Positions 11,687-14,171 of a DNA stretch of 20,337 nt are shown here, piece by piece (the stretch's first letter is position 1; the number at the start of each line of letters is the position of its first letter). A program made the position numbers and the translations under genes. This DNA comes from a virus. Location: positions 1-20,337 of IMG/VR virus record IMGVR_UViG_3300044639_000626. The stretch is one strand, 5' to 3'. The notes beneath the pieces were generated by a model. That model was not told the origin of the DNA. It was given only the letters and a program-made list of their open reading frames with translations, and did not search any database.

Positions 11687-11715
11687 TTGACAAGCGCTAG
11701 ACATTGTCTTACATT
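11687..11715 (+). promoter_or_regulatory. Sigma70-type promoter for the rightward island
   Basis: A perfect -35 box TTGACA (11687-11692) is followed, after 17 bases, by TACATT (11710-11715), a 4 of 6 match to the -10 consensus. Transcription would begin near 11722, leaving a leader of about 50 bases before the first island gene at 11771. This is the clearest promoter in the window and would use the host polymerase, fitting early expression. Confidence 0.55.
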
Positions 11716-11748
11716 ACATCACCGGCGCGATTTTGCACCGGCATACAG

Positions 11749-11767
11749 TCAACTAATCGAGAGGTTT
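11749..11767 (+). repeat. Shared leader motif, copy 1 (TCAACTAATCGA + GAGG)
   Basis: TCAACTAATCGA at 11749-11760 is followed by GAGG as Shine-Dalgarno, then the ATG at 11771. The same 12-mer recurs before the gene at 12888. A shorter relative (CAATCGAAGG) occurs at 11660. Two genes of the island thus share a copied leader. Confidence 0.6.
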
Positions 11768-11770
11768 TCA

Positions 11771-11995
11771 ATGTCTAATTTGCCCACAACACTCAATAAA
11801 TGGCAACGCCGCGAAATCGAAACAATGCAGAAAATGCAACATTTCGGCGCAAATTATCTGGCGCGCGGGTTGTCTATGCTTTGGCGCAGCGCGCCGAAGA
11901 AAACCCAGCAAGCTGAAATTCTGGCACTGGCGCAACGCCTGGGCGTTGATCAAAATCCGGAATTCATTATTTCTAACCAATGCACGTTCATGTAA
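11771..11995 (+). CDS. First gene of the rightward island, 74 aa, unknown
   Basis: The ATG at 11771 is chosen because GAGAGG precedes it by 7-8 bases. A longer frame back to a TTG at 11687 would use the promoter -35 box as its start and is not credible. The product starts MSNLPTTLNKWQRREIETMQ and continues KMQHFGANYLARGLSMLWRS, with an AEILALAQRLGV helix and the end NQCTFM. It is mostly helical and basic, with no membrane segment. No family is recognised. As the first gene behind a host-type promoter it is a candidate early protein. A G/C hairpin follows 10 bases after the stop. Confidence 0.7.
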   Translation: MSNLPTTLNKWQRREIETMQKMQHFGANYLARGLSMLWRSAPKKTQQAEILALAQRLGVDQNPEFIISNQCTFM

Positions 11996-12004
11996 ACGTC
12001 AACC

Positions 12005-12023
12005 GCGCGGCCACCGGCCGCGC
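12005..12023 (+). terminator. G/C-only hairpin between island genes 1 and 2
   Basis: GCGCGGCC, loop ACC, GGCCGCGC is a perfect 8-bp stem. There is no T-run after it, so it is more likely a partial or Rho-linked stop, or an mRNA 3'-end stabiliser, than a full intrinsic terminator. Confidence 0.45.
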
Positions 12024-12054
12024 TCAATTCACTCAAATACAGTAAAGGTCCATC

Positions 12055-12813
12055 ATGTCAAAAATTCTAGGTTATATCGCTTATGAGGGTCCATCGACCA
12101 TTGACGGCGCGCCCATTGTCGTCATTGTCAACAAAATCCACACCGATTCTAAAAACGATAAGACCGGCGCGATTGTGCAAACCTTTATTATCCGGTCCGA
12201 TATCGCGCCCATGGCCGCGCTTCAATCGGGCGAAGATGAATCCATATGTGGCGATTGTGGGCACCGGCCATATCTCATTAAAACCGGCGAGAGCGAAGAA
12301 CCGCCATGTTATGTCCAAGTCGGAAAGTCGGTTCAATCGGTTTATCACGCATACAAACGCGGCCGGTACGTCAAAGCGGACCCGGCCACAATCGCCCGCG
12401 TGCTCGCCGGTAAGATTGTCCGTATCGGTACATATGGCGACCCCTTCGCTGCGCCGGTGCGCATGTGGGCGCAGATAACCCGGTATGCGGCCGGCCGGCG
12501 CGGTTATTCGCACCAATGGGACCGCGCCGATTTTGACGTGCAAGCATGGGCCCCTTTGGTTATGGCAAGCGCGGACAATATTGATCAAGCTGCGAAGGCT
12601 AACTTGCTTGGCATGCGCGTTTTTCGCGTGTCAATGGGGGTTGACGTTCAACCGGGTGAGGCATCATGCCCGGCATCGGCCGAAAGTGGCCGCCGGTCTA
12701 CATGCGCAAAATGTACCCTTTGCTCTGGCACGTCAATCAACGCGCGCGATATTGTAATCGCCGATCACGCGGCCGGTCATGCGCGCCGGGTTATTTCGAT
12801 CGCTAGTGTGTGA
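12055..12813 (+). CDS. Seven-cysteine protein of unknown function, 252 aa
   Basis: The largest island gene. The ATG at 12055 has AAAGG 8 bases upstream. Cysteines are grouped: C65xxC68 (CGDCGHRP), C85 (PPCYVQVG), C205 (ASCPAS), and C217xxC220xxC223 (TCAKCTLCSG). Other conserved-looking blocks are YHAYKRGRY (97-105), RIGTYGDPFAAP (123-134), GYSHQW (150-155) and the end DIVIADHAAGHARR. I recall phage homologues with the same Cys blocks and the 'G.YGDP...P' segment, all annotated as unknown. The cysteines could hold zinc or an iron-sulphur cluster. The C-terminal CxxCxxC with a distant Cys recalls Fe-S proteins, but there is no CxxxCxxC radical-SAM motif. It follows a hairpin, so it may have its own expression level. 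Confidence 0.8.
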   Translation: MSKILGYIAYEGPSTIDGAPIVVIVNKIHTDSKNDKTGAIVQTFIIRSDIAPMAALQSGEDESICGDCGHRPYLIKTGESEEPPCYVQVGKSVQSVYHAYKRGRYVKADPATIARVLAGKIVRIGTYGDPFAAPVRMWAQITRYAAGRRGYSHQWDRADFDVQAWAPLVMASADNIDQAAKANLLGMRVFRVSMGVDVQPGEASCPASAESGRRSTCAKCTLCSGTSINARDIVIADHAAGHARRVISIASV

Positions 12814-12820
12814 CCTTATG

Positions 12821-12838
12821 TGGACCCTTCGGGGTCCA
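12821..12838 (+). terminator. UUCG-tetraloop hairpin after the seven-cysteine gene
   Basis: TGGACCC, loop TTCG, GGGTCCA forms a perfect 7-bp stem closed by C(UUCG)G, one of the most stable RNA tetraloops. It starts 7 bases after the stop codon. There is no T-run after it, so it probably protects the 3' end or attenuates transcription, and does not terminate fully. Confidence 0.55.
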
Positions 12839-12865
12839 TATCGGGGCGCGCACTGGTGCACGCTA

Positions 12866-12881
12866 TCAACTAATCGAAGGG
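12866..12881 (+). repeat. Shared leader motif, copy 2 (TCAACTAATCGA + AGGG)
   Basis: TCAACTAATCGA at 12866-12877 is identical to the copy at 11749 and again leads into a Shine-Dalgarno (GAAGGG) and an ATG (12888). A short palindrome GCACTGGTGC (about 12850-12859) precedes it. It may be a copied translation-initiation region or a regulator site. Confidence 0.6.
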
Positions 12882-12887
12882 TAAACC

Positions 12888-13112
12888 ATGGTTAAGACTA
12901 TGAAAGCAAAATTTAAGGGTAAGGATGCGCGCACGGGCGCGCCGATCTACCCGGGCGATGAGATCCAATATTGCACGACCACGCGCCGCGCATGGATTAC
13001 CGCCGAACCGGGTGAGATAACGTTTATCGGCGAAAGTGGCCCGACCACGTTTTATCGTAACCCGCGCGGGCGCTGCGAAGACGCCCCATGTTGCGGATGC
13101 TGCACTATTTGA
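12888..13112 (+). CDS. Small protein with C-terminal cysteine cluster, 74 aa
   Basis: The ATG at 12888 has GAAGGG 8-9 bases upstream. The product starts MVKTMKAKFKGKDARTGAPI and continues YPGDEIQYCTTTRRAWI, then a beta stretch GEITFIGES, and ends RGRCEDAPCCGCCTI. The 'K..G.D..TG.PI..GD.I.Y' part is the compact beta-barrel type I have seen in small phage proteins. The end packs five cysteines into ten residues (C63, C68, C69, C71, C72), with C29 further upstream. Such a cluster could bind zinc or another metal, or form disulphides. Function is unknown. It is followed 11 bases later by the next gene. Confidence 0.75.
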   Translation: MVKTMKAKFKGKDARTGAPIYPGDEIQYCTTTRRAWITAEPGEITFIGESGPTTFYRNPRGRCEDAPCCGCCTI

Positions 13113-13123
13113 AGAGGATCATC

Positions 13124-13315
13124 ATGTTTAGTACTTATCTGCGGTTAAACGTGCCCGTATGGGCCAGCACACGCGCGGTTATCCGCGCCACCTACGGGCG
13201 CCTGCGGCCATCTGCGCGCGCCCACGCCCATCGGGCGCCACGCCACGCCATCATCCGCGAGATGCTGGGCCATCATGCGCGCGCGCAGGCATTGCATGAG
13301 AGGGTTAGTGCATGA
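13124..13315 (+). CDS. Arg/His/Ala-rich small protein, 63 aa
   Basis: The ATG at 13124 is chosen because GAAGAGG precedes it by 6 bases. An upstream ATG at 13088 would overlap the previous gene. The product starts MFSTYLRLNVPVWASTRAVI and continues RATYGRLRPSARAHAHRAPR, with HAIIREMLGHHARAQALHER near the end. It is extremely basic. The pattern 'RAviRa.y.RL.p.ARa...R...RH...R.ML..H..A..L' resembles small proteins I recall from phages of Burkholderia and Pseudomonas, function unknown. The high G+C of this stretch leaves the opposite strand open as well, but the ribosome binding site and the ATGA overlap with the next gene support this strand. Confidence 0.6.
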   Translation: MFSTYLRLNVPVWASTRAVIRATYGRLRPSARAHAHRAPRHAIIREMLGHHARAQALHERVSA

Positions 13316-13467
13316 CCTACTACACCACCAAAGCGGCCGCGCAGGCCCTGGCCGATACGCTGACCGCGCAGGATGATGACGCATGGCTTTACGAAGTACA
13401 CGCGAGCCCACGCGGGTTTTATGTGGCCGTTTTTGATTTTGATCACTTTTTTTTAGGAAACCTATGA
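13312..13467 (+). CDS. Small acidic phage protein, 51 aa
   Basis: The ATG at 13312 overlaps the previous TGA as ATGA, and the TGA at 13465-13467 overlaps the next ATG. The product starts MTYYTTKAAAQALADTLTAQ, followed by DDDAWLYEVHASPRGFYVAV and the end FDFDHFFLGNL. The layout, a helix of alternating Ala and Thr/Leu, then 'DD.W.Y.V......F.V.v.D.d...LG.L', is that of a small alpha-beta phage protein family I recall from Proteobacterial phages with no known function. A run of eight T near the 3' end (13446-13454 region) encodes Phe-Phe-Leu and is a possible slippage site. Confidence 0.65.
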   Translation: MTYYTTKAAAQALADTLTAQDDDAWLYEVHASPRGFYVAVFDFDHFFLGNL

Positions 13468-13550
13468 GCACATTTGAGCGCGCGCAGCGTATTGTTTTTT
13501 TGGTGGCCATCATTGTGGTGGCTTTGGATCTTTTTATTTGGAGACCATAA
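13464..13550 (+). CDS. Single-pass membrane peptide, 28 aa
   Basis: The ATG at 13464 has TAGGA 6 bases upstream and overlaps the preceding stop (ATGA). The product is MSTFERAQRIVFLVAIIVVA then LDLFIWRP. One clear transmembrane helix (about residues 10-26) follows a charged N-terminus with net positive charge, predicting an N-in orientation. It resembles the many tiny inner-membrane proteins of phage early regions. A pinholin or an inhibitor of a membrane target is possible. No lysis gene is nearby, so a lysis role is not supported by context. Confidence 0.55.
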   Translation: MSTFERAQRIVFLVAIIVVALDLFIWRP

Positions 13551-13551
13551 C

Positions 13552-13842
13552 ATGCAAACGATTAAACTAGGGAAAACCCTATACGTCACGCGCCGGGATG
13601 ATATTCTGGCGCATCACGCCAAATGCACCGGCAAGCAACGCAAACTTAAAAGCAAAGGCGCGGAGAAGCGGTTCTATCCGCCCATGGGGGCCACTATGTC
13701 CACGGCTGATTATGTGCGAGCCTATGAGACGCTCAACGCTCAAAAGAACCTGACTAAGTGGGATTGGCAATCCCTGAGCACCGCGCCCACGGTGCCAAGT
13801 GGCGAAGATGCGGCATGGGAGGTCGATTATGAATCTAATTGA
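13552..13842 (+). CDS. Hypothetical basic protein, 96 aa
   Basis: The ATG at 13552 follows the previous stop by one base and has TTGGAG about 10 bases upstream. A longer in-frame start at 13474 lies inside the membrane-peptide gene and lacks a binding site. The product starts MQTIKLGKTLYVTRRDDILA, then HHAKCTGKQRKLKSKGAEKR, FYPPMGATMSTADYVRAYET and LNAQKNLTKWDWQSLSTAP, with an acidic end. The N-terminal half is strongly basic and the C-terminal part has Trp/Tyr-rich helices with a 'STADYVRAYE.LN' segment. I do not recognise it. It overlaps the next gene by 14 bases. Confidence 0.7.
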   Translation: MQTIKLGKTLYVTRRDDILAHHAKCTGKQRKLKSKGAEKRFYPPMGATMSTADYVRAYETLNAQKNLTKWDWQSLSTAPTVPSGEDAAWEVDYESN

Positions 13843-14017
13843 TCAAGATTATGTATTGATTGAAGGCGCGGCTTGGGTGGAAGTGCAAGGGTTCGCGGTG
13901 CGCATACGCGCCAATTCGTCCGGGTTAGCGGTTGACGTGTATAAGTCAGGCGCAGAGGGGGAAGACACTTTGGCAAGTATTTGTCTGGAGCCGCTCGATG
14001 TTACATCCGATCTTTGA
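13829..14017 (+). CDS. Hypothetical acidic protein, 62 aa
   Basis: The ATG at 13829 is chosen over an in-frame start at 13799 because a strong GGGAGGT lies 6 bases before it. The product starts MNLIDQDYVLIEGAAWVEVQ, then GFAVRIRANSSGLAVDVYKS, and ends with EDTLASICLEPLDVTSDL. It is a beta-rich acidic domain ('YVLIEG.AWV.V.gFaVRI..n..GL.VDVY.sG.E.edtL'), of a kind I have seen in phage early regions. Function is unknown. It overlaps the preceding and following short genes. Confidence 0.7.
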   Translation: MNLIDQDYVLIEGAAWVEVQGFAVRIRANSSGLAVDVYKSGAEGEDTLASICLEPLDVTSDL

Positions 14018-14078
14018 GGATATTTTGAGGCGGTATGCGCCGCCGCCCCCACCGCCCAAGGGGGAGGCATGGCGTTGA
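13998..14078 (+). CDS. Possible 26-aa peptide with six prolines
   Basis: The ATG at 13998 has GGAG 8 bases upstream and overlaps the preceding gene by 20 bases. The product is MLHPIFEDILRRY followed by APPPPPPKGEAWR. A run of six prolines would stall the ribosome unless EF-P acts, so it could tune translation of the peptide that starts at 14069. It is short, so chance is possible, but the binding site and tight tiling favour a real gene. Confidence 0.4.
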   Translation: MLHPIFEDILRRYAPPPPPPKGEAWR

Positions 14079-14128
14079 TCTGCGCGGTCATTTTGGCCGC
14101 TATACTTGCGCTGCTGCTGGACCTCTAG
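14069..14128 (+). CDS. Possible 19-aa hydrophobic peptide
   Basis: The ATG at 14069 lies 4-5 bases after AGGGGG and overlaps the stop of the poly-Pro peptide. The product is MALICAVILAAILALLLDL, almost entirely one hydrophobic helix. It is the last reading frame before the terminator at 14146. Length alone does not prove coding, but the strong binding site, tiling with neighbours and pure membrane-helix content argue for a tiny membrane protein. Confidence 0.4.
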   Translation: MALICAVILAAILALLLDL

Positions 14129-14145
14129 CAGTTGCCAACATTCAC

Positions 14146-14171
14146 AGGGCCCCTCGCGGGGCCCTTTTTTT
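14146..14171 (+). terminator. Strong intrinsic terminator closing the rightward island
   Basis: GGGCCCC, loop TCGC, GGGGCCC (14147-14164), extended by an outer A-T pair and followed by a T7 run (14165-14171). It lies between the convergent island and primase genes and points rightward, so it ends the island transcript before it runs antisense into the replication block. Confidence 0.88.

Follow-up and report, generated by a model that had tools for sequence, protein, structure and literature searches.

A plus-strand island of a P22-like podophage pairs a seven-cysteine barrel gene with a cysteine-tail gene in a putative early accessory operon

The IMG/VR virus record IMGVR_UViG_3300044639_000626 was analyzed over positions 1 to 20,337 (the window; 20,337 nucleotides in all), and attention was given to ten short open reading frames (ORFs), g1 to g10, that lie on the plus strand at 11771-14128 and are here called the island. 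Judged from its gene content, the window represents 20.3 kb of the genome of a P22-like podophage of freshwater origin. Its closest annotated phage was DSL-LC05, with 76% identity over 20% coverage. Genes for coat, scaffold, portal, and terminase are located left of the island, and genes for a primase-helicase (DUF5906/RepB-like), a family A DNA polymerase, a single-stranded DNA-binding (SSB)-like protein, and a PD-(D/E)XK nuclease are located to its right, so that the island sits between the terminase and primase genes. A first-pass annotation made from the sequence alone had described the island as a lone plus-strand cassette among minus-strand genes, and the genes called on either side of the island were indeed all on the minus strand.

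The architecture that had been read from the sequence was recovered (Table 1). The promoter with a TTGACA-N17-TACATT arrangement was found again by a scan, the strong terminator consists of a hairpin followed by a T-run, and the ten genes are tightly tiled, with ATGA overlaps at g4/g5 and g5/g6 and further overlaps at g7/g8, g8/g9, and g9/g10. By number, the hits of the promoter scan (5 versus 3.1) and of the terminator scan (3 versus 5.0) were not above those in shuffled sequences. Of the products singled out earlier, the seven-Cys protein is g2, which contains exactly seven cysteines, the protein with a C-terminal Cys cluster is g3, which ends in CEDAPCCGCCTI, the Arg/His-rich protein is g4, and the membrane-size peptides are g6 and g10. 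The two intercistronic hairpins without a U-run (g1/g2 and g2/g3) are possible processing or stabilizing elements. g10 was identical in at least 7 of the 47 related islands that hold it.

Table 1. Features of the island and the basis of each assignment (positions in the window)
Feature	Position	Strand	Basis
Promoter, sigma-70-type TTGACA-N17-TACATT	11687..11715	+	sequence, scan, relatives (TTGACA 11687-11692; TACATT 11710-11715)
Hairpin at expected transcript 5' end (CCGGCGCGATTTTGCACCGG)	11721..11742	+	folding energy, relatives
g1, 74 aa, variable	11771..11995	+	relatives in 9/80 loci, best identity 52%
Intercistronic hairpin after g1, without U-run	12005..12023	+	dG -17.6, z -3.8
g2, 252 aa, seven-Cys barrel protein, core gene	12055..12813	+	80/80 loci, phrog_2554
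Intercistronic UUCG hairpin after g2, without U-run	12820..12839	+	dG -14.5, z -1.9
g3, 74 aa, C-terminal tail RGRCEDAPCCGCCTI	12888..13112	+	34/80 loci; at least 120 viral contigs hold the tail motif
g4, 63 aa, Arg/His rich, variable	13124..13315	+	6/80 loci
g5, 51 aa, common	13312..13467	+	34/80 loci; codon-position differences 286/267/735
g6, 28 aa, single transmembrane-like peptide	13464..13550	+	12/80 loci
g7, 96 aa, common	13552..13842	+	44/80 loci
g8, 62 aa, rare	13829..14017	+	1/80 loci
g9, 26 aa	13998..14078	+	19/80 loci
g10, 19 aa, hydrophobic peptide just before terminator	14069..14128	+	47/80 loci
Intrinsic terminator, stem AGGGCCCC-TCGC-GGGGCCCT then T-run	14146..14171	+	8-pair stem; dG -17.9, z -4.4

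A scan of viral contigs with g2 gave 175 relatives, and 80 of these were kept as loci for comparison. The presence of g2 in all 80 loci (75-95% identity) was imposed by its use as the query, and the gene counts in Table 1 are lower bounds because some loci are fragments. In every locus with recovered flanks, g2 was bracketed by TerS and primase, which were both encoded on the other strand. Of 23 relatives, 12 had promoter hexamers identical to those of the window and separated by the same 17-nt spacer, located 83-373 bp ahead of g2. In the relatives L006 and L013 a compensating change (CTGG/CCAG) preserved the hairpin at the expected 5' end; the 50-nt stretch that contains it had a dG of -10.8 and a z of -1.0. 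Throughout the 80 loci g2 formed the constant core, g3, g5, g7, and g10 were common, and the remaining genes came and went. Comparison with related phages had been proposed as a check, and it found the island at the same site with variable content. With the same flanks, a shared g2, conserved elements, and variable other genes, the island is therefore an accessory slot at a fixed site with a fixed core. An excess of differences at third codon positions (467/299/1927 for g2) pointed to purifying selection on g2, g3, g4, g5, g6, g7, g9, and g10. At the level of sequence, the comparison showed an operon that is conserved and that varies in content, and on this basis the island is a genuine gene block conserved in evolution.

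An accessory slot with small genes, variable content, and an early-type position would also suit a counter-defence cassette whose small products block host defences. We consider this quite improbable. The island proteins tested gave no meaningful match in searches with PADLOC (defence proteins) and NCBIfam, and a g2 so deeply conserved across unrelated hosts is hard to reconcile with an antidefence gene that is purely host-specific. The joint reading as a host-takeover or counter-defence cassette, made earlier from the sequence, is at best tentative. Searches of Pfam and PHROGs returned nothing convincing for g1 and g4-g9.

The earlier statement that most products match no known function has to be corrected for g2 and g3. 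g2 falls in a large recorded family, and tblastn with g2 retrieved 148 phage records, with hosts including Mycobacterium, Gordonia, Klebsiella, Roseobacter, Caulobacter, and Microcystis; the tail of g3 is common to 197 mycobacteriophage records. The g2 family is thus already on record (phrog_2554, DUF7227, GP88) but without an assigned function. g2 matched the phrog_2554 profile with an E value of 3.6e-60 and did not reach the Pfam cut-off for DUF7227 (17.7 bits versus a gathering threshold of 27); we therefore place it in phrog_2554 and describe its tie to DUF7227 as relatedness only. When 39 relatives were aligned, the g2 type and the DUF7227 type came together. phrog_2554 was matched by all 39, DUF7227 by 38 at E up to 0.1, and GP88 directly by one (E 4.9e-7), while phrog_1392 was matched by 8 of the 39 and by 12 of 15 GP88 proteins. 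Moreover, GP88 (PF17338) occupies in the cluster A mycobacteriophage Drake94 the place of the g2 homologue of RhynO. As judged by these alignments and matches, g2, DUF7227, and GP88 were shown to be linked families. Homologues of g2 with 32-36% identity were also seen on six plasmid records, from Nostoc, Tolypothrix, Microchaete, Brasilonema, and Methylobacterium.

Seven cysteines (C65, C68, C85, C205, C217, C220, and C223) were invariant in 12 diverse phage proteins and form a 3+4 layout. The spacing of the first cluster differs between the types, being C-x2-C-x(7-25)-C in the g2 type (C-x2-C-x16-C in g2 itself), C-x3-C-x5/6-C in the DUF7227 type, and C-x6/7-C-x3-C in the GP88 type. DUF7227 (PF23872)/phrog_2554 shares the Cys set and the order of barrel strands with g2, whereas the g2 type has a longer N terminus in addition to its own first cluster. 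GP88 (PF17338)/phrog_1617 resembles g2 in the three cysteines after the first barrel strand, in the order of strands and helices in the models, in its early-region position, and in having the same tail partner, but it lacks the C-terminal four cysteines.

Structure prediction with AlphaFold (AF2) gave a confident (beta/alpha) barrel for g2, with a predicted local distance difference test (pLDDT) score of 89.6 and a predicted template modeling (pTM) score of 0.88; a GP88 protein was modeled with a pLDDT of 81. As read from the element lists, strands and helices follow one another in the same order in both models. In the models the three N-terminal cysteines follow the first barrel strand, and the last four cysteines of g2 follow a late strand. 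A search of BFVD with the g2 model returned DUF7227 proteins first (E 7e-6), GP88 proteins next (E 0.006, probability 0.90), and a protein annotated as radical S-adenosylmethionine (radical-SAM) third (probability 0.72). The nine best VIA rows for the GP88 model were all radical-SAM enzymes (viperins, ChlB, PFL-activating enzyme, NifB) at weak Z scores of 5.2-5.9, and the top VIA rows for the g2 model included lysine 2,3-aminomutase, viperin, and NifB at weak Z scores of 3.2-3.6. The best Foldseek row for g2 was SkfB at a nonsignificant E of 0.018. The 3+4 layout would be that expected for a radical-SAM-like iron-sulfur (Fe-S) protein with an auxiliary cluster.

The tail of g3 was followed separately. 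The scan motif [R/S]CEDAPCCGCC occurred in at least 120 viral contigs, and among the matches listed it lay at the stop codon or a few residues from it in nearly all. It follows differing N-terminal parts, one of which resembles DUF5710 below the cut-off. A barrel gene of the g2, DUF7227, or GP88 type was found inside the fetched locus in 92 of the 120 tail loci listed, on the same strand in 92 of 92 and upstream of the tail gene in 88 of 92. GP88 was carried by 13 of the remaining 28 contigs, and therefore 105 of the 120 hold a barrel gene. By type, the 92 loci comprise 31 with g2, 35 with DUF7227, 24 with GP88, and 2 unclassified. g2/DUF7227 and GP88 were never together in 42 longer contigs. 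When neighbors were clustered, the three barrel families (35, 31, and 24 loci) were among the most frequent and lay closest to the tail gene, at median distances of 35, 4, and 4 bp. The barrel genes beside the tail fell into 9 clusters at 50% identity and 22 at 70% identity; many tail contigs are fragments, and some are near-duplicates. The gene order in these contigs shows an operonic pairing of barrel and tail.

Occurrences of the tail outside this setting were also noted. The motif lies at 4841-5413 of L263, on a 225-kb Mycobacterium pinniadriaticum contig that is possibly prophage. The idea that the tail is a bacterial chromosomal feature was rejected, the motif being found in only 10 of 84,980 species genomes and in nine of these on contigs of metagenome-assembled genomes. 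An ORF in which the N-terminal half of a g2-type barrel runs into a tail protein (L208 63-893) was left unused; its barrel is truncated, and it may represent a fusion or a deletion.

As to timing, the T7-like phages S2B, jiawei, and Hroenn encode a relative of g2/GP88 upstream of their RNA polymerase; in Lo5R7ANS the relative is close to the beginning of the genome, and in RhynO, Bongo, and Drake94 it is close to the right end. The right end is where cluster A mycobacteriophages carry GP88, and in the cluster A phage D29 right-arm genes are expressed by 15 min, starting near Pleft (PMC5712189). Because of these positions and the timing in D29, early expression of the island is likely, as had been proposed for it from the sequence. 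The early regions of T7-like phages and cluster A mycobacteriophages resemble the island as a compact run of small genes with g2/GP88 near the head; in contrast to them, the island is a separate block on the opposite strand between the terminase and primase genes. A truncated N-terminal remnant of a g2 homologue was observed in the early region of Pseudomonas phage LUZ100 (gp04, L093 726-989).

The island is best explained as an early accessory operon of a P22-like phage built on a radical-SAM-like Fe-S protein and a Cys-tail substrate or partner, and we regard this as moderately probable. Host RNA polymerase would read the island early, as promoter type and position suggest, from one host-type promoter to one terminator. 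The Cys layout and the weak fold similarity suggest that g2 assembles an Fe-S cluster, and radical-SAM-like chemistry would be in keeping with the model. Where g3 is present, g2 may act on, or with, its Cys tail, a step suggested by the operonic pairing; barrel and tail would then act on each other, and the CEDAPCCGCC tail would most likely serve the barrel as substrate or as cofactor partner. Early modification of a small effector is our guess at the benefit for the phage. A wider proposal holds that in many phages of unrelated hosts an early noncanonical Fe-S enzyme of radical-SAM fold (g2/DUF7227/GP88) modifies the CEDAPCCGCC tail of a partner, which thereby becomes an active effector, in a takeover system similar to those of ribosomally synthesized and post-translationally modified peptides (RiPPs). 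This we think rather unlikely.

Results of several kinds weigh against the moderately probable explanation. With regard to chemistry, the canonical CX3CX2C motif of radical-SAM enzymes is absent from the g2, DUF7227, and GP88 types, and no Radical_SAM match was found in Pfam for g2 at E up to 1 or for its relatives up to 0.1. Foldseek against the PDB gave nothing significant for either model, and a Z score under 8 may reflect a common fold arrangement. The fold search that had been proposed as a check was thus run for g2 with a divided outcome, yielding a weak radical-SAM resemblance but no significant PDB fold match; PDB sequence searches with g2, the g2 alignment, and GP88 likewise found nothing. 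With weak fold scores and without CX3CX2C, g2 therefore only may work like a radical-SAM enzyme and is not assigned to that superfamily. The noncanonical Cys spacing, the missing profile match, and the weak scores are what one would see if g2 were a barrel that binds zinc or a structural metal and performs no radical chemistry, such as an inhibitor of a host protein that has lost its enzymatic function. We hold this to be possible but doubtful, because seven invariant cysteines in the 3+4 layout persist over distant phages, because in our reading an invariant YGDP follows a barrel strand at the place taken by GGE in radical-SAM enzymes, and because radical-SAM enzymes head the GP88 fold rows. 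A further weakness is that hhalign of the g2 and GP88 alignments gave no link in three attempts. The homology between g2 and GP88 rests on intermediates (phrog_1392 and the one direct Pfam match) and on fold because profile-profile comparison failed to join the two.

The remaining adverse points concern the pairing of the radical-SAM-like protein with the Cys tail. The tail contigs had been picked by the motif, and conservation of the tail is thus partly imposed; nearly all sequences from a relaxed scan nevertheless kept E or I, and A, at the unconstrained positions. No barrel was found in 15 of the 120 tail contigs listed, and the flanks examined in isolated phages with g2 showed no tail gene. 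Of 65 related islands with g2, 30 lack g3, and the pair is thus not obligate. This last count would fit barrel and tail being ordinary early genes that stand side by side through compactness, each working alone, the tail perhaps as a metal- or host-binding peptide. So would mini-proteins with the tail for which the fetched locus contained no barrel gene; such ORFs, about 40-50 aa long and ending in CGCEDAPCCGCNL, were found in L267, L285, and L288, and those of L285 and L288 speak for independence. Nevertheless, we judge independence unlikely. The tail gene adjoins three barrel families on the same strand at a distance of a few base pairs, and the frequency of a barrel in the tail contigs listed contrasts with its absence from all 40 control loci and all 36 control records; these controls had been chosen by a polymerase motif and were few and not matched for phage type.

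Compared with known systems, g2 shows a weak barrel resemblance to, and a similar placement of Cys clusters as in, radical-SAM enzymes such as viperin, SkfB, NifB, and PFL-activating enzyme, but differs from them by the features weighed above. Pairs of radical-SAM enzymes and RiPPs also consist of adjacent genes with a Cys-rich C-terminal segment. Here the tail gene adjoins the barrel in most tail loci, yet not obligately, the tail stands behind exchangeable N-terminal domains, and no transporter or peptidase was noted. Literature searches on DUF7227, PF17338, and the tail gave no relevant paper, most subscription journals and all preprints being outside their coverage. The type of operon is already known, and the barrel-tail pair looks like a novel form of it. 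DUF7227, GP88, and phrog_2554 are now tied to a highly conserved Cys tail, and a first testable function is proposed for these families, which occur in hundreds of sequenced phages including common phages of Mycobacterium smegmatis. If the barrel does act on the tail, this would be a new early phage chemistry open to study in standard laboratory strains.

A nearly complete relative of 36,136 bp has two plus-strand blocks, the island and a second one. The second block (L329, G089 24542-26342) consists of a 153-aa gene and a SNF2-type helicase.

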